From Alphaproteobacteria bacterium (GTDB lineage: Bacteria > Pseudomonadota > Alphaproteobacteria > Micavibrionales > Micavibrionaceae), in contig JAJFGV010000084.1 in the NCBI GenBank assembly GCA_021775965.1, forward strand, positions 1-64,000: DNA of 64,000 nucleotides, in the 5' to 3' direction. Below, piece by piece: positions 43,465-62,770 of this stretch (within the stretch, counting starts at the first letter, position 1; each line of letters begins with the position of its first letter). The notes beneath the pieces were generated by a model that was not told where the DNA came from, did no database searches, and saw only the letters and a list, made by a program, of their open reading frames with translations. Made by a program: the position numbers and the translations under genes.

Positions 43465-44292
43465 ATGGAAAACAGTATTAAAGAGAAAATTAAACATAGC
43501 CCTTTGGCCGCGCCGCTTACCTTGGCGCGCATGGTAGGTGCGGGCTATTGCGGCTATCCAGGGAAATGGGAGGGTGAAGAGCAGCAGGTCCAGGAGACTT
43601 TGAATAGCATCAAGGAAAATGGATATTACATTATTCCTGCATATTATTCAGTAGAGCGTTGTCAGGACCTTCGCGATGAAATCGACAGGCAGTTCGAAGA
43701 AAATAAAGACAAAACGTCCCATGATGATTTGATTGGCGATACGCGTTTGTTTGGCGCAGAAAAGGTGTCCAAATCCATCAATAAGTTTAATCAGGACCCG
43801 CATTTGCAAAAGCTGAGTGATTTATACCATGGCGAGCATGCGCCGGCGCCGTTTACACTGGCCGCGCGGCTTGAGTGTAATGAGATCAACAAAGATAAAG
43901 ATCATGGCTGGCACAGGGATTCTTTGCGCCGCCAGTTCAAGGCCATTATTTATTTAAGCGATGTGTCCGAAGACAACGGTCCGCTACAGTATATTACCGG
44001 ATCGCATCACATGCGTAATATTTTGGCAGATGGGTTGCAGGGAAGAATTCCGTACATGTCGTCGGCCATTGCGCCAGAGTCAGCAGAAAAAATTCTTGCC
44101 AAAAATCCTGCGCGTTTAAAAACCGTTATTGGTGGGGAAGGGACTCTTATTCTGGTTGATACCACGGGCATTCATCGCGGCTCCACCATACAGACCGGCA
44201 AGCGCTATGCGCTAACCAATTATTACATGTTCGAAGATCAAATTGGCCCGAGGCTGAATGAATATTTCGGGCCACTCGCCTATGCAGGCTAA
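43465..44292 (+). CDS. PhyH-like Fe(II)/2-oxoglutarate dioxygenase family protein (second of two)
   Basis: 275 residues. The metal-binding triad is clearer than in the first copy: H150-x-D152 in HGWHRDSLRRQ and His237 in GIHRGS, with Arg247 as candidate 2-oxoglutarate anchor. The segment NGPLQYITGSHH is typical of phytanoyl-CoA dioxygenase-like enzymes. It follows the flippase by 2 bp and precedes a sulfotransferase. It is not a recent duplicate of the 39365-40288 gene, since the two share only the metal motif. Confidence 0.8.
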   Translation: MENSIKEKIKHSPLAAPLTLARMVGAGYCGYPGKWEGEEQQVQETLNSIKENGYYIIPAYYSVERCQDLRDEIDRQFEENKDKTSHDDLIGDTRLFGAEKVSKSINKFNQDPHLQKLSDLYHGEHAPAPFTLAARLECNEINKDKDHGWHRDSLRRQFKAIIYLSDVSEDNGPLQYITGSHHMRNILADGLQGRIPYMSSAIAPESAEKILAKNPARLKTVIGGEGTLILVDTTGIHRGSTIQTGKRYALTNYYMFEDQIGPRLNEYFGPLAYAG

Positions 44293-44296
44293 AATA

Positions 44297-45445
44297 ATGA
44301 CGTATGATCCCGCGAGCATTCTTCAAAAACCTGATTATTTTTTGGACGTTTTGTTCGGGCGTTTGCTGAATTCTTTGCCTTATGAGCAAAGGAAAGCTTT
44401 GCTCTTTTCACCCCTGGTTAATTTTCGGCTGCTATCACAAAACAGAAAGCTGGCGACGTCTATTGCCAAAACCTATCAGGGGGAAATAGATGATGCTGTT
44501 AAAATTTTGATTTCGGCTCTGAATGATGCACCAGAGAATTTACATGCTGCAGAAAATCTTGGCTATATTTTGTTCTATCTCTCTGACAGGAATATTTTGG
44601 AGAGCGCATGGGAGTCTTTAAATCATTATCGGTTGCCCGCCCGCGCTGACGAAACGTCACCAAGATTGCTGATGGTGATCCTGGCGCTGATGCTCAAACT
44701 GGATGTTGAAGGGGCGGCGAAGAATATGGAGAAAGATTATATTGAGAGGGTTGTTTCTCCTAACATCCAAAACAAACCCAAAAGGCCAATTTTTTTCTGG
44801 CATATTCCCAAATGTAGCGGCACATCCGCCAATGACATTTTTTACCGGCATTTTTATAAGCGTCCCGAGGCGGATTTGCTACCTTCCTATGCAAGTTTTC
44901 CGTTGTTACAACATTGCTTGCAACATTACGGTGATGTCTTTCCCTATATCGCCAGCGCCCATTGCGGTGTAGACAAGATCAGCCCACCTGAAAAAGCCTT
45001 TGTTTTTACGGTTTTAAGGGATCCTGTCGAGCGCGTTATTTCGATGTACAAGCAAACGTGCACGGCTTTAACGCATGGTTATATGTTCAGGCAATTGCCC
45101 AGCTATGAATTTTTCTGGGAAAAGTGGAAGGCGAATGACTTTATGCCGTGGATTGATAATTTACCGCCGGCATTGTTACAGCGCCAGTTAACTACTTTTT
45201 CACCCGAAGAAGATGTTGGTAAAGCGGCCAAGACAATTAAAGATATGGATTATTATATGATCCATAAATTCAACCGTGGCAGTTTTGGCGATCTGTTTTC
45301 CCAGTTAAAATTACCGTTAAAAGCGCAAGATATGTCACATAGCCTTAATAAGTCACCCAAGGGACCGTATATTAGCGAAGAAGAAAAACAAATGCTCAAG
45401 GACAAACTTGAAAAAGAGTATACCCTTATTAAGAAGCTCGTTTAG
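44297..45445 (+). CDS. Sulfotransferase family protein
   Basis: 382 residues from the ATG at 44297 (AGG upstream). ATGs at 44258 and 44282 are alternatives inside or overlapping the previous gene. The N-terminal 150 residues are helical and repeat-like (TPR-type). The sulfotransferase domain shows the 5'-phosphosulfate-binding loop HIPKCSGTS (about 169-177) and the 3'-phosphate motif RDPVERVIS (about 241-249) for the PAPS donor. It probably sulfates the glycan handled by the neighbouring flippase (inference). The 3' end overlaps the Pse operon's last gene by 17 bp. Confidence 0.82.
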   Translation: MTYDPASILQKPDYFLDVLFGRLLNSLPYEQRKALLFSPLVNFRLLSQNRKLATSIAKTYQGEIDDAVKILISALNDAPENLHAAENLGYILFYLSDRNILESAWESLNHYRLPARADETSPRLLMVILALMLKLDVEGAAKNMEKDYIERVVSPNIQNKPKRPIFFWHIPKCSGTSANDIFYRHFYKRPEADLLPSYASFPLLQHCLQHYGDVFPYIASAHCGVDKISPPEKAFVFTVLRDPVERVISMYKQTCTALTHGYMFRQLPSYEFFWEKWKANDFMPWIDNLPPALLQRQLTTFSPEEDVGKAAKTIKDMDYYMIHKFNRGSFGDLFSQLKLPLKAQDMSHSLNKSPKGPYISEEEKQMLKDKLEKEYTLIKKLV

Positions 45446-47009
45446 TGGTTTTTGCAGCAGTATTCTCACTAAAAAACTCGTTGAGAGCCTGCGCGTGGCT
45501 TTGCAAAAGATCTTCATAAGGCCTTGAATTATAAGATACATCGCTGGGGGAATGCAAAGTAGAAACCTTCAATTCGTCCTGATAAAAGTGAATGTATTTC
45601 AAAAGATCCAAGCGCACATCTTCTTCGGTTTTTTGTTCCGCAATACTTAGGGCCTTTTTTAATTCATCAGGCGTGCTCACCGTAAAACAACTTTGACAAC
45701 CGCTATACCAGGGATGACCGAACAAAATACAAGGCTTACTCAAATTGAGGCTTTCCCAACCGGCCGTTCCAGTTAAAGTGGCCGTTATTTTGGAGTGTGA
45801 TATCAATTTTTCCGTTGGCTCGCTTTGCGGCACGAGCACAACATTGTCAAAGGCCAGAAATCTTTCAAAATCAAAACATTCTCTATAATGAATGGCCGAT
45901 ACTGTATTGATTGTTGTGTCGAACTGGCGCGGATTTTCTTTTAAATATATTTTCCACCCCTTGGGAAGGGCGGCCAGCAAGAGTTCCAGCGCTAGCAGCT
46001 GTTCTTCGAAAATTCCCGCTTCTGGCTGGCTGGTTAGCTCGGGCTGAAGATGGAAGGGAAAATAAATATACGGCGCGCTATAATCAAGTTCCTGCGTTTG
46101 GCCTTCATAGAACTCTTTAAGCTCTTTGGCTTTGTTCTCGTGGTCTTTGACCGCTTTTGACCACAAAAACGGCGACGCTTTCTTGTCCATAGCCATTGCA
46201 AAATAAAAATTATCTTTTTTAATAGAATCCAAAGCATTGCGAACAAGTTTTTTTACAGCTTGTATATACTTATTGGCATCACTATTTGATTTCTGTGTAT
46301 TCAGAAACTTTTGGTAACGGCTTGTTTCAGCATTGACGCCTATTTGTTTGTGGAAATCATCGTTTTCCATTTTAATGACATTGGTGACGATGCTTTCTGC
46401 TTCAAAATCCTCTAGTAAACTAGGGTCAATGGCAGCCCTGACTTCCTCCAGAGTGTTGGCGCTTAAGTGACCTTCCGGCACTCTTTCAATGGTTTTATAA
46501 TCGGTTCTGAACAGACTACGGTTATTAATTGCCGTATGGGATAGATAACAATAAGGAATATCCAAATATTTACATGCCTGCATCAACACCAGTTCCCAAC
46601 ATGAATGTGGTGTGTAAGGGAAGTAAACACAGTCAATATTTTCTTTCTGAAGATAGCCTGTCCAAAAGCGGGTTAAGTCATAAAAAAGATTTTTGCGCTC
46701 ACGAAACGGAATGGATTTATAATTGGTTCTGTCTGTTAGAACCATAAAATCATGTTCTATATCTTTAAAGAATTCATATTGGTCAGCACCAAAGAAAGAA
46801 AAATAGTCTTTGTATTTTTTATAGATCGCTTTTGAATGGAATAGATCGAAAGAAGGTATGACTTTACACTTTAATCTCTTTGAAATTTTCTTGTGTTCGG
46901 ACTTATCACGCGCGGTCGTCACATGGGAAATGTTATAGCCCTGGCCCTGCATTTTTTGTGCTAAATCAAGGGAGTAGGGGCTTCCTATTTCAACAAAGAA
47001 AAGATTCAT
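45429..47009 (-). CDS. KpsS/capsule-polysaccharide-type glycosyltransferase-like protein
   Basis: 526 residues from the ATG at 47009. The frame extends upstream into the methyltransferase gene but MNLFFVEIG is the natural start. Relationship to the capsule polysaccharide biosynthesis group is suggested by KIYLKENPRQ, ATLTGTAGWESL and KPCILFGHPWYSG, in the order seen in KpsS/LipB-type Kdo transferases. A nonulosonate such as pseudaminic acid would be a plausible donor, since Kdo-type enzymes use CMP-ketosugars (inference). It is the last gene of the minus-strand operon. Confidence 0.6.
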   Translation of the reverse strand: MNLFFVEIGSPYSLDLAQKMQGQGYNISHVTTARDKSEHKKISKRLKCKVIPSFDLFHSKAIYKKYKDYFSFFGADQYEFFKDIEHDFMVLTDRTNYKSIPFRERKNLFYDLTRFWTGYLQKENIDCVYFPYTPHSCWELVLMQACKYLDIPYCYLSHTAINNRSLFRTDYKTIERVPEGHLSANTLEEVRAAIDPSLLEDFEAESIVTNVIKMENDDFHKQIGVNAETSRYQKFLNTQKSNSDANKYIQAVKKLVRNALDSIKKDNFYFAMAMDKKASPFLWSKAVKDHENKAKELKEFYEGQTQELDYSAPYIYFPFHLQPELTSQPEAGIFEEQLLALELLLAALPKGWKIYLKENPRQFDTTINTVSAIHYRECFDFERFLAFDNVVLVPQSEPTEKLISHSKITATLTGTAGWESLNLSKPCILFGHPWYSGCQSCFTVSTPDELKKALSIAEQKTEEDVRLDLLKYIHFYQDELKVSTLHSPSDVSYNSRPYEDLLQSHAQALNEFFSENTAAKTTKRAS

Positions 47010-47016
47010 GTGCGCA

Positions 47017-48045
47017 TCACTTTTTTCTGGCGATGGTCCACATATGAGAAGACAGATTGTTTTCTGCCAAAAAGTCCTGGAACGCATCGCCATCCTGATC
47101 CCAGTTTTCCACCAGGATTTGATACAGGAAAGGGTTCTCTTCCTGTTTTATCTTGCCGGATAAAAACATTTTACGCACCAGTTCTGCGTCCAGCTTACCC
47201 GGCGTCATCACTTCCAGAACTTCAAATCCGTGACGTTCAAACAGCACTTTCATAGAGCCAGGATGAAAATAATTAAGATGCTCAACATCGACAGTGCCCG
47301 AATGTTCTGGCGAAACCACAACATCAAAGCCTTTGCCATTGGGGTTGGTAATGATGGCCAGACCACCTGGCTTCATAATCGCGCCGCATTTTTCAATGAA
47401 ATCAGAAGGCGAGAATAAATGCTCCAGAACCTCAAAAGAACAAATAAGATCAACAGATCCCGGTTCAAAATCTGCCTTTTCTATCGGCGATTCAACCACG
47501 GTTAACCCTTTTTTCCTGCAGGTTTCCGAGAGTGAAGGGGTCGGTTCAACAGCAATCACTTCTTCGATGAAGTCGAGCTTTAAAATTTCCTCACAAAACG
47601 TCCCAAAGCCGGCGCCAACTTCAACCAGTTTTTTGGGTTTCAGTCCCAAGCGATCACAAATCTCCTGCACTTTTACCGCGCGTGGTTTGAATATATTTTC
47701 ACGGCGTGCATCTTCTGTAGCTGGAAATATATGTTTGTTCCAAAAATCATAATTTTGTGAATTTTTGTAAAAATCTGCCAGCTGATCTTCGGTTGGGCGC
47801 GGATTAATATAAAGCGTTTCACATTCTTTACACTGGCGATAATCCAATGTGTATTTCTGAAAGGCCCGATCAGAATTATCCTGATCGCAGGCTGGACAGT
47901 TCACCTGAATAAAATCAGCTTTTGATTTTAGAATATAATCAATATCGGCCATCATCACGGCGTGTTGCTTTTTCATGATATCGTCTGGGCGAATATCGTT
48001 TTCCGTGAAACCATCTGGATTTTTCTTGGCTGCATTCTTTGACAT
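47017..48045 (-). CDS. SAM-dependent methyltransferase with N-terminal zinc ribbon
   Basis: 342 residues. Cys50, Cys53, Cys72 and Cys75 (CPAC and CKEC) form a zinc-ribbon of the type found in sugar C- or O-methyltransferases, followed by ETLYINPRP. The class I core has LVEVGAGFGTF (motif I, about residues 140-150) and SFEVLEHLFSP. Such proteins are common in nucleotide-sugar and surface-glycan clusters. It lies 5 bp after the amidotransferase gene, suggesting it methylates the nonulosonate or the growing glycan. Confidence 0.78.
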   Translation of the reverse strand: MSKNAAKKNPDGFTENDIRPDDIMKKQHAVMMADIDYILKSKADFIQVNCPACDQDNSDRAFQKYTLDYRQCKECETLYINPRPTEDQLADFYKNSQNYDFWNKHIFPATEDARRENIFKPRAVKVQEICDRLGLKPKKLVEVGAGFGTFCEEILKLDFIEEVIAVEPTPSLSETCRKKGLTVVESPIEKADFEPGSVDLICSFEVLEHLFSPSDFIEKCGAIMKPGGLAIITNPNGKGFDVVVSPEHSGTVDVEHLNYFHPGSMKVLFERHGFEVLEVMTPGKLDAELVRKMFLSGKIKQEENPFLYQILVENWDQDGDAFQDFLAENNLSSHMWTIARKK

Positions 48046-48050
48046 GATGA

Positions 48051-49265
48051 TTATCCTACCTTTTTGTTGTTTCTAACATTATTAGTATTATCCTGGTAAA
48101 CTGGGCCATAAGCTGAGGGTTCACCCCATATATTATCCTTTACCCATTCATTGTTTTCAATCCGCCAGACAGCCGGATTGCGAAAACCATCCAGAGTACA
48201 ATCGAATTCTTCTTCGCTCATACCAACATAATCGAGCCATCTTTCCAAATCACGACGCGGTTTGACGGCGTCGTATTTTTTGATCATTTCAATGCCTTCA
48301 TCACGTGTCATTTTGCCGCCGCGAATATCTTTACAAGCATGGTCTGTTGCGCGGCCATAACCAAGCTTAACAAATTTCATATAATCATGGATACCGTTTT
48401 CATGCATATCATCGAGATTTGAGAACGTACGGTATGTGCGCTCAAAAGGCTGGCGGGCTGGTTCCCAACCATATTTTTCTACCATCATCTTTGAATTTTC
48501 TTCACCATTCCAGTTCAGATAGTTACTGAGATATAAGCCGCGCACGCCGACCTCATCAATTTCTTCATCGTTTGGATACTGAGCCCACAAAAGATCCTTG
48601 GATGTAAGGCCTTCCTTTATATCACCCATGCCCAGTTTTTCCAGGCCTTCATCGGTAAAATCATACCAGTCATAACCGCGCAAAGAGTGTTCCAGCCTGT
48701 GTTTAGCGGTAAACTCAACAAAATCGTTGTAGGAGTACATTCCACCCAAATCCATGAAGCCATGCTCTCCCCATAAAATGAGGGGAATTTTGTAACGGAC
48801 GGCGACCTGAATAGGGGTCGTAAAAATTCCACAATGGCCGTGCCAGTTATTATCGCCCTGCACCTTAAAACCAAGACGGTTCATCTTAATCAGTGTATCA
48901 ACACCTGGCCGTACGACAATATGATCAACATCAAAAACTTCGCGCATACGCAGCATGTTTTCTTCGCCCTCGGGCAGGTAATTATTGGCGTGGTAGGTCA
49001 CGAGCAGGGGCTTTAAACCGAGCTCAATTATTTTATGAGTTTGAAAATAACTGTCTTTGCCGCCACTAACAGGAATGAGGATGTCGTAGTTATTGTCAGT
49101 TTTATAACTCTGAACAAGCTCCTTAAATTCTTCCCAGCGCTCATCCCAGTTGAGGTCTGGTTTTTGATCATGCACGCGACAGCCCGTACAGACGCCGTCT
49201 TCATCAAAAGCGGTCGGCACAGCCGAAATATCCGGGCAAACACAACGGGAACAATAAGCAACCAT
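48051..49265 (-). CDS. N-acetyl sugar amidotransferase (PseA/WbpG family)
   Basis: 404 residues. An N-terminal four-Cys cluster (Cys5, Cys8, Cys26, Cys29) precedes a PP-loop ATP pyrophosphatase domain with PVSGGKDS (about 65-72), and GEHGFMD and the NNWHGHCG loop follow. Members convert an N-acetyl group of a sugar into acetamidino (WbpG on UDP-ManNAc3NAcA, PseA/LegG on nonulosonates), using ammonia delivered by HisH/HisF partners. Both partners lie directly upstream. In this operon the likely substrate is a pseudaminic acid precursor or its CMP form. Confidence 0.88.
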   Translation of the reverse strand: MVAYCSRCVCPDISAVPTAFDEDGVCTGCRVHDQKPDLNWDERWEEFKELVQSYKTDNNYDILIPVSGGKDSYFQTHKIIELGLKPLLVTYHANNYLPEGEENMLRMREVFDVDHIVVRPGVDTLIKMNRLGFKVQGDNNWHGHCGIFTTPIQVAVRYKIPLILWGEHGFMDLGGMYSYNDFVEFTAKHRLEHSLRGYDWYDFTDEGLEKLGMGDIKEGLTSKDLLWAQYPNDEEIDEVGVRGLYLSNYLNWNGEENSKMMVEKYGWEPARQPFERTYRTFSNLDDMHENGIHDYMKFVKLGYGRATDHACKDIRGGKMTRDEGIEMIKKYDAVKPRRDLERWLDYVGMSEEEFDCTLDGFRNPAVWRIENNEWVKDNIWGEPSAYGPVYQDNTNNVRNNKKVG

Positions 49266-49266
49266 T

Positions 49267-50055
49267 TTACAACCTTACATTAACGCCAGCGCGCTGTAGC
49301 GCCCGCTTTCCGTTTCTATCAGACAATTCCTTGAAATGCCAGATATTTGCCGCTGCCACAGCCGAAGCGCCGGCATCGACAGCCTTGGCATAGTGCTCAT
49401 AGGTGCCGACGCCGCTACAGGCTATAACCGGGATTTTAACGGCTGCGGACACTGATGAAATTAGATCAATATCATAGCCAGTGCCTTTGCCGTCTTTATG
49501 AATGGCCTGTAGGAGAATTTCGCCAGCGCCCATTGCCTCGAGCTCCTTTGTCCATTTAACAGGATCTTTTCCTTTGGCTGTATCTTTGCCGCCGGTAAAA
49601 ACCTCATAGCGGCCATCATCATGGCGCAGCACATCCACGCTTGCAACGACAGCTTGTGAGCCGTATCTTTTGGCAATTTTATCGACCAGATCAGGTGTTT
49701 CGAACAAAGCATGGTTCAAAGTAATTTTGTCGGCGCCACGGCGAAACCGCTCAGCCGCATCATCAAAAGAACGAATGCGCCCACCCCAGGTCAACGGTAC
49801 AAAACATGTTTTGCTGACCTCATCAAGAATATCAAGCGGACCTTCCAAGCCTTTCGTCTTGTGGTCTGTCCGGCGCTGCAGGCTATATTCACCTTGCGTG
49901 ATGTCAATATAGATGAGTTCATCGACGTTCCATTCATTAAAGCGTTTTACCTCATAGACAGGGTCACCAATAATTTGATGAATGGAAAAATCTTCGCTAC
50001 GAACCAGTTGGCCATTTTTAAGAAGCAAGACGGGAATGAGGCGGGTTTTGAGCAT
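49267..50055 (-). CDS. HisF-like amidotransferase partner (sugar amidination paralogue)
   Basis: 262 residues, HisF TIM-barrel. The canonical catalytic Asp11 of imidazole-glycerol-phosphate synthase is Leu11 here (RLIPVLLLKNG), while the second Asp (SVDVL) is kept. Loss of Asp11 argues against a histidine role and for ammonia channelling to the adjacent PseA/WbpG-like enzyme, as known for HisF2/HisH2 in P. aeruginosa serotypes. Abuts hisH (TAAATG). Confidence 0.88.
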   Translation of the reverse strand: MLKTRLIPVLLLKNGQLVRSEDFSIHQIIGDPVYEVKRFNEWNVDELIYIDITQGEYSLQRRTDHKTKGLEGPLDILDEVSKTCFVPLTWGGRIRSFDDAAERFRRGADKITLNHALFETPDLVDKIAKRYGSQAVVASVDVLRHDDGRYEVFTGGKDTAKGKDPVKWTKELEAMGAGEILLQAIHKDGKGTGYDIDLISSVSAAVKIPVIACSGVGTYEHYAKAVDAGASAVAAANIWHFKELSDRNGKRALQRAGVNVRL

Positions 50056-50679
50056 TTAATCACCCATCTTTAAAAAATTTCTAAGAAAAGTGAGCCCCGC
50101 CGCCTGACTTTTTTCAGGATGAAACTGTGCGCCCCAAATGTTGCCTTGCTCAATACTGGCGGCAAAATCATGGCCGTACTGGCATGTACCGCTGATAACC
50201 GAAGGGTCGGAGGGCTGAAAAACATAGCTATGCACAAAGTAATAATCCTGCGGCATCTCTAAGTCATCATAGCTCTTTGATCCTTCTTGTGCTGTCACAG
50301 CGTTCCATCCAATATGAGGGATGCGGATCGATGGGTCTTCAGGGTTAAATTTAACAACCTTACCCTCAACAAGACCCAAACCTTCAAAGTTTCCGTGTTC
50401 TTCTCCTGTGGAAGCCAAAAGTTGCATACCCAAACAAATGCCAAGAAAGGGTTTTTTGTCTTTCATAGCAATATTTTGAATAGGCTCAACCCAACCATTG
50501 CCTCGAAGGTGCTCCATCCCATCGCCAAAAGCACCAACGCCTGGCAGCACTGTGCAATCCGCAGATTTTAAATCTTGTGGCTTTTCAGCAATGAACGGTT
50601 TGGCGCCGACATATTCAAAGCCGTTATAAACCGAGCGTAAATTCCCCAGCCCGTAATCAATGATCGCGACTGTTTTCAT
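50056..50679 (-). CDS. HisH-like glutaminase partner
   Basis: 207 residues. This class I glutamine amidotransferase releases ammonia from glutamine. Catalytic Cys82 in GICLGMQ and the His-Glu pair in FHPEKSQ are intact, and the N-terminal IDYGLGNLRSV is HisH-like. It partners with the HisF paralogue that follows, and probably feeds the amidotransferase at 48051. No other histidine genes are in the window. The ATG overlaps the pseI stop by 4 bp. Confidence 0.9.
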   Translation of the reverse strand: MKTVAIIDYGLGNLRSVYNGFEYVGAKPFIAEKPQDLKSADCTVLPGVGAFGDGMEHLRGNGWVEPIQNIAMKDKKPFLGICLGMQLLASTGEEHGNFEGLGLVEGKVVKFNPEDPSIRIPHIGWNAVTAQEGSKSYDDLEMPQDYYFVHSYVFQPSDPSVISGTCQYGHDFAASIEQGNIWGAQFHPEKSQAAGLTFLRNFLKMGD

Positions 50680-51854
50680 CCGGCCTCTAGATTAATCATG
50701 TCCCATTGCAGAGGCGTGCCGGCCTCGATGTCGCGACTGGCCTTGTTGGTGTCAATGAGATCAGTATAGCGGATATGAAGACCGCCATTTCCGGGACGAA
50801 TGGAATCAAAATTTCCTTCGCGGCCAGCCGCAAATTTTAACGCCTCGCCTGCCTTGATATTCTCCACAACCCAAAGTGCCGGCCGGGCAGGGCGTGAGGC
50901 AATTTCCCTCTCAGTCGGTTTAAAGCAAACCTGACCGTGCGTGAGGGCGGCCAATTCTTTTTCCTGGTCCGTTTTATAATTCACGTTTCCATCTTTTTCA
51001 TACGTGCGGATCATATCAACCAGCAATTTTAATTCATCTGGTTCCCGTGAAAAGGCCCAGTCATAGCCGCCTTCATCTTTTTCAAAAAGTGCACGCGATT
51101 CATCGCGGCTCATCATCAAATGTAGTTCAATAATTTTGGCGCCGAACTTAACTGATTCAACCGGCGTTATATGTGCGGCCGGTTCCGCCTTATTTTCATG
51201 ATCGGCAAATAATGTGTGATCGGAAAGCCCGGTAACACAATCAAAAAGCTGGCCCAGAACGGGGATAGTTTTTAAATTAACTTCGTTAAAAGCCGCTGGA
51301 TAACCGCTGTTACAGTGCAGGAGCGCGATATCTTTGGCGCCAGCCCCACGCAAGACATCAATGGATTCTTTCATCTCGAGATAATCCGTCATACCATTGG
51401 AAATAATAATCGGCTTACCGGTCTGCGCCATATATTCCATGAGTTTTGTGTCGACCGCTTCAAAAGAAGCTACCTTAAGAACAGGAACATCTTGTTCCAT
51501 CAAAAAATCAACGGCGGTTTCATCAAAAGGAGAAGAAAAAAGCTGCACGCCATTATCATCGGCAACTTTTTTAAGATCCTTATGCCACTTCCATGGCGTA
51601 TGCGCCTTCTCATACAAAGCATGCAAGTCCATACCGGCCCACATTGTGCCTTCGAGCATGCCTTTATAATTTCGCGTGATGGTATCAGCGGTATAAGTTT
51701 GTAGCTTTACTGCATCGGCACCTGCATCGGCTGCCGCTTCGATAATTTTACGGGCCTCATCAAAATCACCGTTATGATTACAGGAAATTTCAGCAATGAT
51801 GTAGCAGGGTGCATCATCACCCACCAGGCGGCCATCAATCTTGAAGCTAGGCAT
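50676..51854 (-). CDS. pseI: Pseudaminic acid synthase-like NeuB family enzyme
   Basis: 392 residues. The NeuB-type TIM barrel starts with the AEISCNHNGDFDEA segment, followed by DAVKLQTYTADTIT, LFSSPFDETAVDFL, ISNGMT and LLHCNSGYPA. A C-terminal antifreeze-like SAF domain starts near residue 325. It condenses phosphoenolpyruvate with the 2,4-diacetamido-2,4,6-trideoxyaltrose released by PseG. The TYTADTIT stretch resembles PseI more than NeuB or LegI. It is some 40 residues longer than typical PseI. Overlaps the PseG-GNAT gene by 8 bp. Confidence 0.87.
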   Translation of the reverse strand: MPSFKIDGRLVGDDAPCYIIAEISCNHNGDFDEARKIIEAAADAGADAVKLQTYTADTITRNYKGMLEGTMWAGMDLHALYEKAHTPWKWHKDLKKVADDNGVQLFSSPFDETAVDFLMEQDVPVLKVASFEAVDTKLMEYMAQTGKPIIISNGMTDYLEMKESIDVLRGAGAKDIALLHCNSGYPAAFNEVNLKTIPVLGQLFDCVTGLSDHTLFADHENKAEPAAHITPVESVKFGAKIIELHLMMSRDESRALFEKDEGGYDWAFSREPDELKLLVDMIRTYEKDGNVNYKTDQEKELAALTHGQVCFKPTEREIASRPARPALWVVENIKAGEALKFAAGREGNFDSIRPGNGGLHIRYTDLIDTNKASRDIEAGTPLQWDMINLEAG

Positions 51855-53361
51855 ATGACTTTTTCCCTTCTAAAACATGTGGATGCGAGGCGTGCCACGT
51901 GGCATTCACGGGCTTATATCCTGCCTTATCGAAGAGTATATGGGAAGCTTTATTCTCGGGCAAAACCTCAGCAATGAGAGCCGCATCGGGCTCATAATCC
52001 CTTAAAAGGGCAAGCGCGGCGAGACCTATGCCTTGTCCGTGCATGGCAGGATCTATTAAAATCGAAACCTCATAAATATTTTCAGCGGATGGGGCAATAT
52101 CTTTCCTTTCCTCTTTATCCTGTTTGTCGAGCCTAACAACACCAGCCGGTTTTTTATCACCCTCGACAATAAAAATTTTCCTGCCTGTGTTGCTCAAACT
52201 TTTTGCAAACCAATGCTGATGATCTTCCCATGAAGGCGGGGCAGGGTTGCGAGCATGCTGGCGAATTTCGGGCATGACCTGCCAATCAAATATCAATTTG
52301 CAATCGTTTTCTCCTGCTACGCGCAACGTAACATTTTCACCTGATTTCGTTTTGCCTTCTTTCATCAGATAGCAGAAAACTCTATCTACGCCATCACCAG
52401 TACATATAGCGCCCGCTTTTTCCGACATCCCCGCAAGCCGCTCAGTGGACCCGATAAATTCAGAAAATATGCCTAAAAACTCTTTTTTATCAATAGTTTC
52501 AATTGGCCCCATGTTTTGGATGGCACCTGCTTTACCAAGGCTTTCGAGAACAAATTTTTGATTATCGGCCAACTCCAAAGTTATGCTCGGCAATTTCAAA
52601 CAGCAACGCTCCCAGCTTGTTGTACCGCCAGCGCCGATACACAAATCAGCCTTTGTCATGAGGGCAGCCATATCTGGCGTATCAAGATGAAGATCAATTG
52701 TATGAAAGGCCATATCCTTTATTTTTTCTACTTCTTTTTTTATCGAGGACAGGCTCTTGGCGCCGCTGCTTGTAACAACATCAATGTGGAGTGATTTATT
52801 TTTATATTTTTCTATCATCGACAGAGCATATTCCGTACTCGATTTTGGATTTACGCCGCCGAAAGAGATAAGAATACGATCAGCATTCGAAAAGTCTCTG
52901 TTCATGCCTTGCCGCAGCTCTGAAAATTCTTCACGTAACAGGGCATATTGCGCGCCCGTTAAAATTTTGCAGCCATCTGGCACTAAGGCCTTGTAATCGG
53001 CTGTTTTCCGTCCATAAGTCTGATCCAGCAAGACATCGCAATCATGGGAACGATCGGCCAAATCATCAATCACCATGATGTTTTTGGTCCAATTTCGGGC
53101 ATTGCTTTCATAAGAAGTATCCAGTCCGTAATGGTCGACAATCAACCAGTCGGCGTATTCCAGTTTTTCTTCATGCTGGACAGAGAACTCGTTGTCTCGA
53201 AGCGCGGGGACTGTCTTTAACGTTTCTTCCGAGCTTAAAAATACAATTTCATATTTTTTTTTGCGCAGGGTTTGCGCTAATGTCAGGCAACGCATCACAT
53301 GGCCGCTGCCAATTTCAGGAGATCCATCACAACGAAAAACAATGAGAGGGGCGCTTGGCAT
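51847..53361 (-). CDS. PseG hydrolase fused to a PseH-like GNAT acetyltransferase
   Basis: 504 residues from ATG 53361 (a GTG at 53370 is an alternative overlapping the SDR gene). The N-terminal part (1-335) is PseG-like, a GT-B-fold UDP-sugar hydrolase: SPEIGSGHVMRCLTLA, VIDDLADR, ISFGGVNP and GAGGTTSWERCCLKLP. The C-terminal part (about 345-504) is a GNAT fold with DWQVMPEIRQ at the start, the acetyl-CoA loop GQGIGLAAL, and a terminal NKASHILFDKAGY helix. The GNAT would be PseH (4-N-acetylation before UDP removal), so one polypeptide would do two consecutive steps. Confidence 0.85.
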   Translation of the reverse strand: MPSAPLIVFRCDGSPEIGSGHVMRCLTLAQTLRKKKYEIVFLSSEETLKTVPALRDNEFSVQHEEKLEYADWLIVDHYGLDTSYESNARNWTKNIMVIDDLADRSHDCDVLLDQTYGRKTADYKALVPDGCKILTGAQYALLREEFSELRQGMNRDFSNADRILISFGGVNPKSSTEYALSMIEKYKNKSLHIDVVTSSGAKSLSSIKKEVEKIKDMAFHTIDLHLDTPDMAALMTKADLCIGAGGTTSWERCCLKLPSITLELADNQKFVLESLGKAGAIQNMGPIETIDKKEFLGIFSEFIGSTERLAGMSEKAGAICTGDGVDRVFCYLMKEGKTKSGENVTLRVAGENDCKLIFDWQVMPEIRQHARNPAPPSWEDHQHWFAKSLSNTGRKIFIVEGDKKPAGVVRLDKQDKEERKDIAPSAENIYEVSILIDPAMHGQGIGLAALALLRDYEPDAALIAEVLPENKASHILFDKAGYKPVNATWHASHPHVLEGKKSYA

Positions 53362-53363
53362 AT

Positions 53364-54155
53364 TTACCACGCAGTCCAGCCACCATCGACCGGTAAATTA
53401 ACGCCGTTGATATAGCTTGAATCAGAACTGAGGAGAAAGTGAACCGCCGCGGCGACTTCTTCTGGTTGGCCGATCCGCTTCATAGGATTTTTACAGCATA
53501 GCTGCTCATGAAAATCAGGATTCTTGCTTGCAATATCTTCAGGGGGGCAGGCACCGGGGCTAATGCTATTGGTGCGAATGCCACGCTCTGTCACATGTCC
53601 GGCAAAATAGCGAGAAAGCTGAATAATTGCGGCTTTTGAGGCGCCATAAAACGGCGGGTTGTTCATACCACTGTCGCCATAAATGGACGGGTCGGGACTG
53701 ACCATGCCATACATCGAGGCGATATTCACAATAGAAGCATAATCGGCGTTTTTATCTTTGCGCTCAAGCAAGGGTAGGCATTGCTGTGTTAAATAAAACA
53801 GCCCTGCAACATTCACAGAAAAACAATTTTGAAAATCTTCATGGCTGGCTTCATCAACCGAACCACCCATCGGAAGGTAGGCATTATTCACCAAACCATC
53901 CAAACGGCCACTTTTGTCTTTAATAATTTTAATACTCTCCTGAACAGCCTCCTGATCGCTAATATCAAAGGGCAAGGGGGTACATTGCGCACCTAAATCT
54001 TCTGCCAGCGTATCAAGCGTTTCTTCTGTGCGACCATTTAAGTAAACAAACGCACCGGCCTCAACCAGCCGCCTTGAAATACTGCTGCCCAAATGGCCGC
54101 CAGCGCCGGTCACTAAAACAACTTTATCTTTCAAATTAAAAAATGTTTTGCTCAT
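53364..54155 (-). CDS. SDR-family oxidoreductase (PtmA-like)
   Basis: 263 residues, classical short-chain dehydrogenase. NAD(P)-binding TGAGGHLGSS, NNAYLPMGG, catalytic Ser in NIASMYG and YGASKAAI (Tyr and Lys) are present, and the ISPGACPP stretch follows. Similar SDRs (PtmA) occur in flagellin-glycan nonulosonate clusters of Campylobacter, where their step is not fully defined. In this operon it is extra to the canonical Pse pathway and may oxidise or epimerise the nonulosonate. Confidence 0.75.
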   Translation of the reverse strand: MSKTFFNLKDKVVLVTGAGGHLGSSISRRLVEAGAFVYLNGRTEETLDTLAEDLGAQCTPLPFDISDQEAVQESIKIIKDKSGRLDGLVNNAYLPMGGSVDEASHEDFQNCFSVNVAGLFYLTQQCLPLLERKDKNADYASIVNIASMYGMVSPDPSIYGDSGMNNPPFYGASKAAIIQLSRYFAGHVTERGIRTNSISPGACPPEDIASKNPDFHEQLCCKNPMKRIGQPEEVAAAVHFLLSSDSSYINGVNLPVDGGWTAW

Positions 54156-54156
54156 T

Positions 54157-55760
54157 TCAGTTCCACTTTGCAGGGTCTAGAAAGTTAATATCAACCCTCG
54201 GTATTCTTTTCTCAACATCTTCAATATTATCCAGCTCTGGCGCATTGAACAATGCAAGATTTTCCTTAAGTTGATCAAGGGTTTCGACTCCGACAACAAT
54301 ACTGTCGATCCAGTTCTGTGATCGGGAATAAGCATAACAAAGATCCTGGACAGATGCGCGCTTATAATCCTGCACCAGAGTTTGAAGGGTTTTTGCAACT
54401 GTTTGTGCTTCTGCCGTGTCCAAAACCGGCCATTGATCAGGCGACAAAAGAAAGACGCCTTGCAATAAGGCACTACGCGTTTGAATATGAATGTCGTGAC
54501 GTTTTTGCCGCACCTCAATAAAACCGCTTTCGCGCCAGCGCCAGTCACAGATATTAAAAGGCAGCTGGATGAACTCTATTTGATGTTCCTGTAGAGCCTC
54601 CAAAGCCTCATCAGGCGATTGAACCGAGGTGCCAAGTTTTTTGATTAGGCCTTCTTCTTTTAAATCTAAAAGCGTTTGCCAAATTTGTCCGTCATCTTGT
54701 CTGTAGTGCTCCCAGCGATGCAGCATCAAACAGGGAAGGGATTTCAACCCCAAACGCTCACATGATTGTTGCACACTGTCCTGGGCCGTATCTTTGGTAA
54801 CGGTAGGAGCAAGCTTTGTGTGAATGCTGATTTCCTGCTTTTTAAACGTATCGAGGCTGACGCCAATAACCTGCTCTGAATCGCCATAAGCTGCCGCCGT
54901 ATCAATCAAATTAACGCCGTGTGCTATGGCTGTTTCGAGGATGTTTTTTGCTTCTTTTACGCCTGGCTGACCACTTTTATTGGCCACGCCATAATTAAGG
55001 CCAAGCTGAACTGTGCCCAGCGCTAGCCGGCTTTCAGCCTTTAAACCCACCTTTTTGTAAGGTATTCTGAATTTTGGTGCGTCTGGTAAGTTTTGCAATT
55101 TTTGAACCAACACCTGCCACGAAACCGTCAGCGGATCTTCGTCCAGATTGTCAAAAATATCCGCCACACGCTCATAATCATCGGGCGTATCAATCGTTGC
55201 GCGCAGATGAGAAAAATCTTTGTCTAAAGGTGAGATAAACAACGCATAATCATTATTTTTGGTTGGATATATGGTGACGTGTTCACGGTCATACGGCGTT
55301 AAATCCATTTGATTAAGCTCCCGCAGCTTGCCCACGCGCATCACTTCCGCGCTGACACCATAAGGTAGCCGGTCAAAAGGCGAAAAGCTGCGTGTGTAAT
55401 CGGTGCCTTCTCTTTGATGAAAAGCAACAATCTCTTTAACAAAATCTCCATCGACAAACGGATTATCGCCGGTCAGACGGACGATTAAATCATCATCATT
55501 CATATCCGCTGTAGCCTTAAGAAAACGAGCCAAAACATCATCTAGGGAGCCACGAACATGGGGAATGCCATGCTCAGCAAGAGATTCGGCCAAAGGATCA
55601 TCCGAATTTTCCAAAGACGTCGCAACGACTATAGAATAGCCCGACGTCATTGCTCTTTTTGCGCATAAAACAACCAGAGGCATGCCCCCGATGGGCAAAA
55701 GCATTTTTCCCGGTAAGCGCGAAGAATTCAATCGGGCCTGTAGAATAATTTTAACGGCGC

Positions 55761-55764
<4 letters not shown>
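54157..55764 (-). CDS. SpsF-type cytidylyltransferase fused to aldo/keto reductase
   Basis: 535 residues from the ATG at 55764 (overlaps the pseC stop by 4 bp). The N-terminal part (1-235) is a nucleotidyltransferase of the SpsF/CMP-sugar type with IILQARLNSSRLPGKML and LTGDNPFVD. The C-terminal part (about 240-525) is an aldo/keto reductase: LGTVQLGLNYG, DTAAAYGDSE (catalytic Tyr region) and KLAP plus LHRWEH (Lys and His). The N-terminal domain probably activates the nonulosonate as the CMP sugar in place of PseF. The role of the reductase is unknown. Confidence 0.82.
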
Positions 55765-57901
<2,137 letters not shown>

Positions 57902-57953
57902 TTAACCTTTTCATCCTAGAAGGCACTATCTTTAGATCATCTGTGGGAGCGCA

Positions 57954-58793
57954 TCAACCATCAACTCTAGCCATAAGGGCCAGGCTGGTGTAATTAGAGC
58001 CCTGTTTTGTGGGCCAGGGCAGGGCGCCGAGAGGGATAGAGCCGATTGAGGGGTTTTCTTTGCGGGCGCGCTCCAGAGCCAAAAAGGGACCCGAAATGAC
58101 CGTATTGTCAGGATATAGGGGCTGAGCCTCAGGGTAGTAATCATGGAGTAAAATAACGCCGCCATCATTCAGAAGCGGCAAAGCGGCGCTAATCTCTTGA
58201 TAAACGGCCGGCGCACGATGATCTCCATCAAGAAAAATCAGGTCATAACGTTCATCGGTTTTCGTCATAAATTGTAGGCTGGTCCTTGTTTGAAAATCTA
58301 TATGATCGCGGCAATCCAATTCACAGGCAAAGCCATCCGGCGATTTATTCATGCCAACATGTTTCCACGCGCCAGTTTCCACATCATTGACATCGGTAAT
58401 ATCAACGCTCGTGATTTTTCCTTTCGCGCCTGATCGTTTTAAAGCGCTGGCCATGTACAAAGTTGACGCGCCAATATGCGTGCCAACCTCCAGAATATTT
58501 TGCGGCTGCAGTGCCATTACAAGATAATACAGCGCACGCCTGTCTCCCGGGTTCACGCCGCCATAACGATCATCATCACCATAAATATTTGTAATCGGGG
58601 GGCTGTCTTTTTGCCATGCTTCTGCAATGTCCTGATCGTTCAACCATGTATCTAAAGAAACATCACCAGCTGCGCGCAAATGCGAGGGATCAAACGCCAT
58701 AGACGGCAGGGCGCCCAGTTGCGCCCGGTCCTTTATACCAACAGCCTGGCTTATGAAGGACCGGGGCAGAGCTGCTTTGAGAAGCTGCTTCAT
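57954..58793 (-). CDS. SAM-dependent methyltransferase (Methyltransf_24-like)
   Basis: 279 residues. Class I fold with ILEVGTHIGASTLYMA (motif I, about residue 95), GKITSVDI (motif II), YDLIFLDGDHRAP and GGVILLHDYYPE. The pattern matches the Methyltransf_24/CmcI-type group found in glycan clusters. It lies 3 bp after the GT4 gene in the same operon. It may methylate the nonulosonate-containing glycan (inference). Confidence 0.78.
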   Translation of the reverse strand: MKQLLKAALPRSFISQAVGIKDRAQLGALPSMAFDPSHLRAAGDVSLDTWLNDQDIAEAWQKDSPPITNIYGDDDRYGGVNPGDRRALYYLVMALQPQNILEVGTHIGASTLYMASALKRSGAKGKITSVDITDVNDVETGAWKHVGMNKSPDGFACELDCRDHIDFQTRTSLQFMTKTDERYDLIFLDGDHRAPAVYQEISAALPLLNDGGVILLHDYYPEAQPLYPDNTVISGPFLALERARKENPSIGSIPLGALPWPTKQGSNYTSLALMARVDG

Positions 58794-58796
58794 AAT

Positions 58797-59891
58797 TTAT
58801 GCGCTTTCTAAAATAATCTTTGTAAATTTCTTAATAACCCGGTCTTTGTAAAAACGCTCAGGAAGCAATGACTCGCGAGGATATGAGCTTTCTTCACCAG
58901 GCTCCAATTTGCGCATTTCTTCTATCATTTTCTCTATTGTCTCCACAATAACCAAATCTCTGCCCTTGGTGTGCTTTGCGATTTCTGCAATGCCACCGGC
59001 CTCTTTCATGGCAATAACAGGGGTTCCACAAGCTAAAGACTCCAACACAACATTGGGCAAACCTTCCCAGCGCGAGGGCAACAGAAAACAATCCGCCTGC
59101 GCCATAGTGGCCCACGGGTTTTCAAGATGCCCCGCCAGAGTAATTTTGCCTTGCAGATTATGGTGTACGATGAGGCTCTCCAGAGCTTGCCGTTCTTCTC
59201 CTTCTCCCAAAATTACAAGCTCCCAGTCGTAATCCGATTTCATCTTAAGTGAGGGCAGGGCGGCAATCAGCCGGTCAAAGCCCTTTTGCGTGCCCAGACG
59301 CCCTGAGCATAAAAACCTTACACAGCGTTCTTTTATTGGCGGAGCCGCTTCTTTTACCTTCTGCCTAATGCGTTCGACATCAACAGGATTTGGGAGCAAC
59401 TCATAATTTTGCACGCCTATAATATCTTGAAGTTCATCAATGATTTTCTGAGAGGGGCTCAGAATGACATCAGCCTTGGGGTATAAAAACCTGTATCCCC
59501 AGTGACTGACGCGTGCTTTCCAGCCACCTTTGTTAAAAAAGAACGATGGCGTAATCGCTTCGCGCACAATAAAGCGCGCGCCTGGTAAAAACCGTTTTAA
59601 CAAAAGCAGCATAAAATTCAGCGGCGCCATGGTTGATACGATGATATCGGGCTGACGCATTTTGAGAATTTGCAACAGCCGAACCTTCTTGCCGCATACG
59701 GAGACAGAAATCTCAGAGTCAACCAATTGACGCAACGGGCCTTCATCACGCAGGACAACCAACTCTTTGTGGAATTGCGTGGCGTCCAGGTCATTCATCA
59801 ACGTAATCAGAACGCGCTCAGCGCCGCCGGCTGTAAAGGACGGCAGCACGAAGACAATGCGGTGGTGTAAGTTCGTATTTTTCTTTGTCAT
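58797..59891 (-). CDS. Glycosyltransferase family 4
   Basis: 364 residues. GT-B fold: N-terminal VLPSFTAGGAERVLITLMND, C-terminal SGRLGTQKGFDRLIAAL, LGEGEERQAL, and E-x7-E in WEGLPNVVLESLACGTP. It is the first gene of the 13-gene minus-strand operon, with its own promoter candidate 39 bp upstream. Donor unknown. Confidence 0.9.
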   Translation of the reverse strand: MTKKNTNLHHRIVFVLPSFTAGGAERVLITLMNDLDATQFHKELVVLRDEGPLRQLVDSEISVSVCGKKVRLLQILKMRQPDIIVSTMAPLNFMLLLLKRFLPGARFIVREAITPSFFFNKGGWKARVSHWGYRFLYPKADVILSPSQKIIDELQDIIGVQNYELLPNPVDVERIRQKVKEAAPPIKERCVRFLCSGRLGTQKGFDRLIAALPSLKMKSDYDWELVILGEGEERQALESLIVHHNLQGKITLAGHLENPWATMAQADCFLLPSRWEGLPNVVLESLACGTPVIAMKEAGGIAEIAKHTKGRDLVIVETIEKMIEEMRKLEPGEESSYPRESLLPERFYKDRVIKKFTKIILESA

Positions 59892-59929
59892 TCAATGACC
59901 TAAAGATCTCAACGTAGATATAGCTCTAG

Positions 59930-59958
59930 AGAATACGAGGTAAGGGGTTATGACTCAA
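59930..59958 (-). promoter_or_regulatory. Candidate promoter for the pseudaminic acid operon
   Basis: On the minus strand TTGAGT (59958-59953) and TATTCT (59935-59930) have a 17-bp spacer, 4 of 6 matches each. It lies upstream of the first gene of the 59891-to-45429 operon, in the only sizeable gap before it. Confidence 0.4.
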
Positions 59959-60326: not shown

Positions 60327-60401
60327 ACAAGAAAGTTTAGAAAATGGACTTGCTTGAGGAATCTCCCCAAACCGATTTGGGCGAATGGTGGGATTAAAAA
60401 A

Positions 60402-61694
60402 ATGATATTAGAAAAACAAATGAACATTGTAAAAGAGGAACAAGAAAAAGGCAGTAATAAGAACTTTCCGCAAATGCCCGAGCGCAGAGCCATATTCTTT
60501 ATAGCCATTAGTGCCTTAATCATGTCGTTTAGCAGCCTGGTTCCGGTTGTGCCGATTCTGGCTTTTTATGCATTATGGTTCCCACTTATATATTATCGTA
60601 ATGTTTTTATATTGCGATTAACGCCATCATTACTTCCTTTAGGATTGCTGTCGTTCCTTTGTGTCTATTCAACTTTCTGGTCGTATGATCCTGGCAAATC
60701 CATTTATTATGGTTTGGAATTTGCGTCCATGTTGGTCTGTGTCATCATCGCCATGAGAATAGTGCCGAGCAAGTGTTTTTTGAAAGGAATGATAATCGGC
60801 ACAAGCGTTGTTTTGCTGATTAATTTGTTAAGTAATAATTATTCGACTGTTTATGCGACAGGAAAACCGGCCTTAGTCGGTGTTTTTGACCAAAAAAATA
60901 CTGTTGGTATTATCGCTGCCATAGGACTTGTTTTATCTTTTTTGTACTTTTTTTATACTGAAAGCCTAAAAGAGAAAATATGTTTTTCTATTCTGCCTAT
61001 GTTTACAGGAGCTATATGCCTTTATTTAAGTCTTTCCAAAACGTCCCTCCTTGCTGCGCTTGGAACACTGAGCGTATTAGGAGGAATGTATATAGTTACA
61101 AAATTCCCTAGGTGGTTACGAGGGTTTGTGATCCCTCTGGCCATCTTTGGAATATGCACCGTTGCACTCTTTATTTTTGCTTTTGAAATTGATATTTACG
61201 GTTTTGTACTGGAAAAATTAGAAAAAGATCCGACGATGACCGGGAGGACGTGGCTATGGGCCCAAGGAATAGAAAGAGCTTTAGAACGCCCTCTGACGGG
61301 ATACGGCTATAATGCCTTCTGGGTCAGAGGACAACCAGATGCAGAGTTATATTGGAACGTATTTGATTTTGAGAAAGAAAAAGGATTTAGTTTTCATAAT
61401 ATATATATAGAAACATTCGTACAATTAGGCATCGTTGGATTGTCTATAATGATCTTTTTCTTTATTAGCGCTTTTATAAAAACCTTTGTTTCTATCATCC
61501 GGCATGGCATGCATCTAAAAACTGTGCTTTGCCTGAGTATTGTCACATTATTTTTTATAGAATCATTGGCTTCTGTAGAGCTATTAGGCCCGTTTGGAAT
61601 ACAATCTTTTCTGTTCTATTTCGTTTTTCAGACTATTTTAGAGGGTGACAAGAAAAAACCAAATCTTTTGCACAGGCCTACCCCTAAGAATTAG
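60402..61694 (+). CDS. O-antigen ligase/polymerase-like membrane protein (Wzy_C family)
   Basis: 430 residues from the ATG at 60402 (earlier TTG at 60354 is less likely). About ten to twelve membrane helices with a large periplasmic loop. FDQKNTVGIIAAIG, LSKTSLLA, TGRTWLWAQGIERALERPL, GYGYNAFW and SFHNIYIETFVQLG are the expected order for the O-antigen ligase/ExoQ superfamily. It could ligate or polymerise the glycan; the two functions are hard to separate by sequence. The 3' end overlaps the opposite-strand fragment by 11 bp. Confidence 0.82.
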   Translation: MILEKQMNIVKEEQEKGSNKNFPQMPERRAIFFIAISALIMSFSSLVPVVPILAFYALWFPLIYYRNVFILRLTPSLLPLGLLSFLCVYSTFWSYDPGKSIYYGLEFASMLVCVIIAMRIVPSKCFLKGMIIGTSVVLLINLLSNNYSTVYATGKPALVGVFDQKNTVGIIAAIGLVLSFLYFFYTESLKEKICFSILPMFTGAICLYLSLSKTSLLAALGTLSVLGGMYIVTKFPRWLRGFVIPLAIFGICTVALFIFAFEIDIYGFVLEKLEKDPTMTGRTWLWAQGIERALERPLTGYGYNAFWVRGQPDAELYWNVFDFEKEKGFSFHNIYIETFVQLGIVGLSIMIFFFISAFIKTFVSIIRHGMHLKTVLCLSIVTLFFIESLASVELLGPFGIQSFLFYFVFQTILEGDKKKPNLLHRPTPKN

Positions 61695-62766: not shown

Positions 62767-62770
62767 GTTA

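Follow-up and report, generated by a model that had tools for sequence, protein, structure and literature searches.

A predicted operon for an acetamidino-bearing 8-epi-pseudaminic acid in a Micavibrionaceae genome

Analysis of a 64,000-nucleotide stretch of an alphaproteobacterial genome (family Micavibrionaceae, GenBank assembly GCA_021775965.1, contig JAJFGV010000084.1, positions 1 to 64,000; the window) revealed a 13-gene operon that probably encodes every step by which UDP-N-acetylglucosamine (UDP-GlcNAc) is turned into an activated, acetamidino-bearing 8-epi-pseudaminic acid (8ePse5Ac7Am or its 5-amidino isomer), which may also be methylated. This reading rests on analogy with characterized systems, and we put its probability at about 0.6. 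The operon unites genes for pseudaminic acid (Pse) synthesis and an amidotransferase trio with two oxidoreductases, namely an aldo/keto reductase (AKR) domain fused to a CTP_transf_3 cytidylyltransferase domain and an adjacent short-chain dehydrogenase/reductase (SDR). An earlier note on this DNA found no place for the two oxidoreductases in the canonical Pse route, a view that is now out of date: a fusion and SDR pair was reported in 2025 for 8-epipseudaminic acid, and a Vibrio cluster with such genes in 2020. The same note suggested a non-standard nonulosonate, possibly an epimer or a reduced or methylated form. An epimer is indeed the best-supported reading, and its position can be named as C8 by analogy with EpaA and EpaB, while a reduced form is not needed. 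The C8-epimerizing pair was already known; new here are a single operon holding the whole pathway, its combination with the amidotransferase trio, and how widely the module is spread.

In Acinetobacter, EpaA (542 residues; CTP_transf_3 at 5-192, Aldo_ket_red at 239-525) and EpaB (a 262-residue adh_short_C2 SDR) convert Pse5Ac7Ac into 8-epi-Pse5Ac7Ac; an epaA and epaB plasmid in a Pse5Ac7Ac strain changed the capsule sugar to about 85% 8ePse5Ac7Ac by nuclear magnetic resonance, the remainder being Pse (PMC12053666). In polymer-bound sugar, the signals of H-9 and H-8 were at 1.20 and 4.18 ppm for Pse and at 1.10 and 4.35 ppm for 8ePse (PMC12053666); the proteins have the accessions SBS22546.1 (EpaA) and SBS22545.1 (EpaB). 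The window's fusion is closely similar in build, with 543 residues (535 from the likely ATG), CTP_transf_3 at 14-181 and the AKR at 255-520. Its AlphaFold model (mean predicted local distance difference test, pLDDT, 94.9) aligned in VIA-align with both an AKR (1ynp; Z 28.9, root-mean-square deviation (rmsd) 2.6, 273 aligned) and a cytidylyltransferase (6oew; Z 28.7, rmsd 2.3, 226 aligned). In the A. baumannii prophages, as in the window, a fusion of about 540 residues adjoins an SDR of about 262 and goes with the Pse pathway. However, the epaA-epaB pair is prophage-borne, separate from the pse genes and linked to a di-N-acetyl product (PMC12053666), whereas the window's pair lies inside a complete pse operon together with the amidotransferase trio, a methyltransferase and a candidate transferase.

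To place the pair in a wider context, species genomes were scanned with an alignment of four fused proteins. The best 80 of 202 relatives gave 79 loci, 40 of which have one open frame across both domains and are called fused loci here; counts of their context are lower bounds, as some contigs end near the fusion. Judged by record titles, the fused loci include Alpha-, Beta- and Gammaproteobacteria, Bacillota, Chlorobium, Lentisphaerae, Elusimicrobia, Raymondbacteria, Actinomycetota and the archaeon Methanospirillum stamsii. In 34/40 of them an SDR is present on the same strand no more than 178 bp from the fusion, and the remaining ~585 kb of these loci hold five further SDR matches at the same score. 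The earlier note had proposed to look for co-occurrence of the fused reductase with pse genes, and this is what we found: PseB is near the fusion in 24/40 loci, PseC in 27/40, PseG in 27/40, PseI in 29/40 and any of the four in 36/40, with the one-strand order PseB-PseC-fusion-SDR-PseG-PseI in 13/40. The AKR residues D296, Y301, K325 and H357 are kept in 39/39 sequences (alignment A5; the window and 38 of the 40 fused loci, omitting L072 and L102, neither with a detected SDR). Likewise, Y170 and K174 of the SDR are kept in 36/36 and S147 in 35/36 (alignment A6; the window and 35 SDRs, omitting that of L057, which is 25% identical and on the opposite strand).

The fusion itself is rare. Both domains were spanned in 4/385 Alphaproteobacteria (own genome counted; E up to 1e-100), in 6/390 Pseudomonadales (centre genome counted; E up to 1e-60), where one more was cut at a contig end, and, among 24 further genomes from the same family, in G010 alone. 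These genome samples overlap, in that locus L031 is the G010 operon and L062 and L046 are apparently those of G760 and G162. One Raymondbacteria contig carries two regions with fusion relatives (L032 and L066).

From the gene content and order, the conserved catalytic residues and the co-occurrence observed here, we infer the reactions, their order and the product as follows. PseB, PseC, the GNAT half of the PseG fusion, PseG and PseI would produce Pse5Ac7Ac. The AKR fusion and the SDR would then invert C8 by redox, one generating a ketone from the C8 hydroxyl group, the other reducing that ketone from the opposite face. Inversion of a secondary alcohol by redox consists of oxidation to a ketone and re-reduction, a task that could be performed by an AKR plus an SDR, each with its own cofactor site. 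The AKR domain is most likely the oxidant and the SDR the reductase, because EpaB and AciE, which are 41.5% identical, both go with D-glycero at C8 (PMC12053666, PMC5595891). AciE, an adh_short_C2 SDR of 265 residues, belongs to the aciABCD/aciE modules of A. baumannii, in which extra oxidoreductase genes beside a nonulosonate pathway set the C7/C8 configuration and the exchange of AciB for AciE accompanies a C8 switch from L- to D-glycero; unlike the window's pse genes, these modules are built upon legionaminic acid (Leg) genes (PMC5595891). The cytidylyltransferase domain of the fusion would form the cytidine monophosphate (CMP) sugar, and a separate PseF would therefore not be needed in the operon. 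Fusion to a CMP-transferase suggests that the redox and activation steps are coupled, with either the free or the CMP-bound sugar as a possible substrate. The HisH, HisF and WbuX-type enzymes are proposed to convert one N-acetyl group into acetamidino, the downstream methyltransferase (MT2) may add a methyl group to the sugar, and its transfer onto a surface polysaccharide would fall to the KpsC-like protein.

The models for PseB, PseC and PseG all score above their curated cut-offs (Table 1), which places the genes for Pse substrate supply in the same operon as the pair, and the best solved relative of PseI is the pseudaminic acid synthase 8h2c. The WbuX and HisH models are likewise exceeded, the latter being the model of histidine synthesis. 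WbuX is 85% identical in L031 and 80% in L180. Amidotransferase genes are rare alongside the fusion, occurring in 2/40 loci: all three in L031, and HisH and WbuX in L036, a gammaproteobacterial contig of 6390 bases. The Pse5Ac7Am loci of Campylobacter and Clostridium share the Pse pathway and the acetamidino step (PseA) with the window (PMC13317340, PMC3958885), but are flagellar in setting, and the words "aldo", "reductase" and "dehydrogenase" are absent from the main text of PMC13317340.

A second known system resembles the window in its oxidoreductases. In the nab cluster of Vibrio sp. B9-25K2, PseC is succeeded first by an SpsF-like CMP-transferase/AKR protein and next by a dehydrogenase; PseB, PseG, a PseH domain and NeuB are present as well, and the strain's PseAc2 differed in retention time and fragments from that of M. 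viscosa in liquid chromatography-tandem mass spectrometry (PMC7371886). The authors considered an epimer possible, or acetyl groups placed elsewhere, and urged caution with the data, from which they were unable to locate the altered position. The main text of that report does not mention an amidotransferase, the isomer is left unassigned and, in the parts available, no C8 role is proposed (PMC7371886). EpaA/EpaB-type chemistry is a possible explanation for the Vibrio isomer; the link is ours and, in the parts available, is drawn in neither paper.

The AKR and SDR also occur outside the fusion. In L180 (genome G752), the AKR is unfused and lies, with a related SDR that has VDGGWTVW at its end, beside an ordinary CMP-synthetase-like gene, PseB, PseC and PseG. 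At 24 further loci (L074-L088, L090-L093, L095-L098 and L104; mostly uncultured Alphaproteobacteria, some Rhizomicrobium) the pair stands alone with no Pse gene matched nearby, and a NeuB-family gene is present in 24/24 of these genomes as against 9/14 controls. SDR relatives with 27-37% identity were found on IMG/VR viral contigs (L131-L161), where a PseI/NeuB-like frame is present in 27/31. In another set of viral contigs (L162-L169) a PseB-like frame occurs with an AKR, and a CMP-transferase-like frame adjoins the AKR in L162-L166 and L169; none was seen in L167 and L168, where the AKR match runs nearly to the end of the available stretch.

Several observations weigh against the proposed route to 8-epi-pseudaminic acid. 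PseI falls just below the cut-off of its own model (Table 1), far above the 211.9 bits of the NeuB model; the GNAT half reaches 36.0 bits with the PseH model TIGR03585, far under the cut-off of 93.1, and so does not qualify as an equivalog; and the HisF-like subunit is well below the cut-offs of both WbuZ (Table 1) and AglZ/HisF2 (218.5 bits, cut-off 310). Which N-acetyl group becomes amidino is not fixed by sequence. No SDR adjoins the fusion in six of the 40 loci, and in four the available stretch shows no Pse gene. The 24/24 co-occurrence with NeuB is only consistent with a nonulosonate substrate for the pair, because NeuB is common in the controls and the 24 genomes are mostly related. No AKR match was found on the 31 viral contigs with an SDR relative, and SDRs of the wider group can therefore do without an AKR; nonulosonate genes accompany this group, an AKR only in some cases. 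The evidence for EpaA and EpaB is gain of function only, an attempt at gene deletion having failed (PMC12053666). No sequence identifiable as EpaA or EpaB was present among the matches listed in tblastn searches of phages and plasmids, or in scans of viral contigs and the 390 Pseudomonadales genomes, so that the case for orthology is built on domain content, protein length and gene order. The redox direction rests on two cases, EpaB and AciE, and is a weak guess: Leg, the likely precursor in the aci modules, has the D-glycero configuration from the start, and AciE may therefore leave C8 untouched. One candidate for an Acinetobacter epa copy, in genome G197, was rejected, its fusion sitting in a full pse operon within a polysaccharide locus.

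The pair might instead act by redox at another position, either at C7 or C4 or, before PseI, at C5 of the free 2,4-diacetamido hexose, which becomes C8; this would give another isomer, or the same 8-epimer made earlier. The extra genes of the aci modules, oxidoreductases included, also alter C7 (PMC5595891), the Vibrio authors were unable to fix the position of the change (PMC7371886), and fusion to a CMP-transferase is no proof of action on the ulosonate. Nevertheless, EpaA and EpaB in a Pse-making strain left only Pse beside the C8 epimer, no other epimer being reported in the available part of the paper (PMC12053666), which makes action at another position or stage unlikely. We consider it quite improbable that the oxidoreductases perform a side task, on a precursor or an N-acyl group, and that the glycan is plain Pse5Ac7Am. 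Such a task would fit the breadth of the SDR and AKR families, the SDR relatives on viral contigs without an AKR match, and SDRs such as Campylobacter PtmA, which have been linked to the provision of precursors in legionaminic acid loci; it fits poorly with an AKR fused to a CMP-transferase and an SDR directly beside it in 34/40 loci across phyla. The EpaA/EpaB experiment also speaks against it (PMC12053666). Finally, the pair could be inactive or a remnant and the product standard Pse5Ac7Am, given that the genome is a draft of 122 contigs with an estimated contamination of 3.27%. With both frames intact, the catalytic residues kept and the order of the block preserved in G010, where individual proteins or domains are 48-85% identical, this is very improbable.

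If the fusion and SDR do epimerize C8, a role is given to two enzymes that seemed out of place in Pse clusters, and fusion-bearing clusters in several phyla are predicted to yield the C8 epimer in place of ordinary pseudaminic acid. Since nonulosonates are surface sugars, a wrong assumption about stereochemistry would mislead glycan typing. More tentatively, and at slightly less than even odds, we propose that the product is a nonulosonic acid not yet described (8ePse5Ac7Am, possibly methylated, with a dedicated KpsC-like transferase) and that EpaA/EpaB-type C8 epimerization is an old, widespread branch found in full pse operons of many phyla, which served as a source for the Acinetobacter phages. 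Among the matches listed in open-licence literature, a scope outside which most subscription papers fall, no mention of an acetamidino-bearing 8ePse was found.

All 13 open reading frames (ORFs) of the predicted operon are intact on the minus strand, where they run from 59891 to 45429, which bears out the single-strand run described in the earlier note; family profile matches also agree with the gene identities that it had read from motifs (Table 1). The longest frames overlap by 28 and 77 bp at two junctions. When the likely starts are chosen by hand, ATG 55764 for the fusion, whose open frame begins at TTG 55788, and ATG 47009 for the last gene, these overlaps become a 4-bp overlap (with PseC) and a 7-bp gap, respectively. 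Junctions then range from an 8-bp overlap to a 7-bp gap, the sole exception being the 61 bp between the first methyltransferase (MT1) and PseB, and the statement that almost every junction overlaps or lies within 7 bp holds. In G010 (L031), the genes from PseB through the last gene occur in identical order, and the GT4 glycosyltransferase and MT1 have no match; by this comparison, both lie outside the conserved block. We infer co-transcription of the 13 genes; between 57800 and 60400, promoter-like and terminator-like sites were no more frequent than in shuffled sequences.

Table 1. Genes of the predicted operon, in order of transcription (coordinates in the window; aa, amino acids; SAM, S-adenosylmethionine)
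Gene product	Coordinates	Strand	Profile match and remarks
GT4 glycosyltransferase, 364 aa, first gene	58797..59891	-	Pfam PF00534; outside conserved block, no match in L031
SAM methyltransferase MT1, 279 aa, Methyltransf_24/CmcI-like	57954..58793	-	Pfam PF13578, PF04989; outside conserved block, no match in L031
PseB, UDP-GlcNAc 4,6-dehydratase (inverting)	56897..57892	-	TIGR03589 534.9 bits, cut-off 407.75
PseC, aminotransferase	55761..56900	-	TIGR03588 544.8 bits, cut-off 423.5
EpaA-like fusion, CTP_transf_3 + aldo/keto reductase	54157..55764	-	Pfam PF02348 + PF00248; likely ATG 55764
EpaB-like SDR, adh_short_C2, 263 aa	53364..54155	-	Pfam PF13561; starts 1 bp past fusion
PseG hydrolase fused to GNAT acetyltransferase (putative PseH role)	51847..53370	-	TIGR03590 286 bits, cut-off 153.55
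PseI, pseudaminic acid synthase, 392 aa	50676..51854	-	TIGR03586 334.3 bits, cut-off 340.25
HisH-type glutaminase, amidotransferase trio	50056..50679	-	TIGR01855 232.3 bits, cut-off 105.4
HisF/WbuZ-type subunit, amidotransferase trio	49267..50055	-	TIGR03572 WbuZ best model, 248.5 bits, cut-off 299.7
WbuX/PseA-type N-acetyl sugar amidotransferase	48051..49265	-	TIGR03573 316.1 bits, cut-off 203.2
Methyltransferase MT2 (Methyltransf_23), nonulosonate-associated	47017..48045	-	Pfam PF13489
KpsC/KpsS-like protein, candidate CMP-nonulosonate transferase, last gene	45429..47009	-	PF05159 20.7 bits, cut-off 20; likely ATG 47009

The window's genome, G010 and G752 all keep WbuX, MT2 and the last gene together, with identities of 80-85%, 65-74% and 42-57%, respectively. 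Genes like PseB, PseC or PseI lie near MT2 relatives in 7/8 other genomes, and nonulosonate genes near relatives of the last gene in 8/9 (E up to 1e-10). The idea that MT2 is a strict partner of the amidotransferase was rejected, WbuX being near five of the eight other MT2 loci and absent nearby in three. The last gene has a borderline match to Capsule_synth (PF05159), and its predicted model (mean pLDDT 73.8) has KpsC as its top VIA-align match (Z 13.1, rmsd 5.2, 258 aligned; next unrelated row Z 11.7). KpsC and WbbB make up seven of the first ten rows, at 11-14% sequence identity. In the Foldseek ranking, by contrast, UDP-GlcNAc 2-epimerases come out on top and KpsC takes places 45 and 48. 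KpsC and WbbB, which are transferases of 3-deoxy-D-manno-oct-2-ulosonic acid, and the Pse transferase KpsS1 of GT118 all use CMP-ulosonates (PMC12887879). Given its borderline Capsule_synth match and its VIA-align matches, the last gene is a candidate transferase of this kind. By eye, the consensus of alignment A7 has KENP, perhaps in place of the KXHP of (K/R)XHP, and no clear QXXXD was recognized.

The surroundings of the operon, with genes suited to polysaccharide assembly on either side, include a Wzy_C match at 60354-61694, an ABC transporter at 41669-43462 and weak, below-cut-off matches to AAA_31 and GNVR at 61990-63976, a setting that favors a surface polysaccharide rather than a flagellar glycan as the likely destination of the sugar. 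PF01973 was not found in the genome, a result of little weight as the controls match only in four archaea of 14. The genes upstream on the contig look housekeeping-like from their ORF starts. A PhyH-type dioxygenase gene lies at 43465-44292 on the plus strand, and a 63% identical relative directly follows the last operon gene in L031. Another gene that recurs beside the cluster, at 39365-40288 on the minus strand and with no assigned family, has a 49% identical relative in L180. An asparagine-synthase-type amidotransferase gene at 35115-36989 on the plus strand lies in a sugar region, and by eye a similar-looking frame starts L180.

CTP_transf_3 matches occur in nine places across the window's genome. 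Its contig C3 (L026, L027) has, judged by eye, PseB-, PseC-, PseG- and NeuB-like genes, as well as an unfused AKR that adjoins an SpsF-like CMP-transferase; on contig C78 (L028), several CTP_transf_3 genes appear with radical-SAM-like genes. A PseC-like aminotransferase on C3 (L027:14481-16100, minus strand) bears about 140 additional N-terminal residues that look PIN-like by eye, which could reflect a fusion or a frame artefact.

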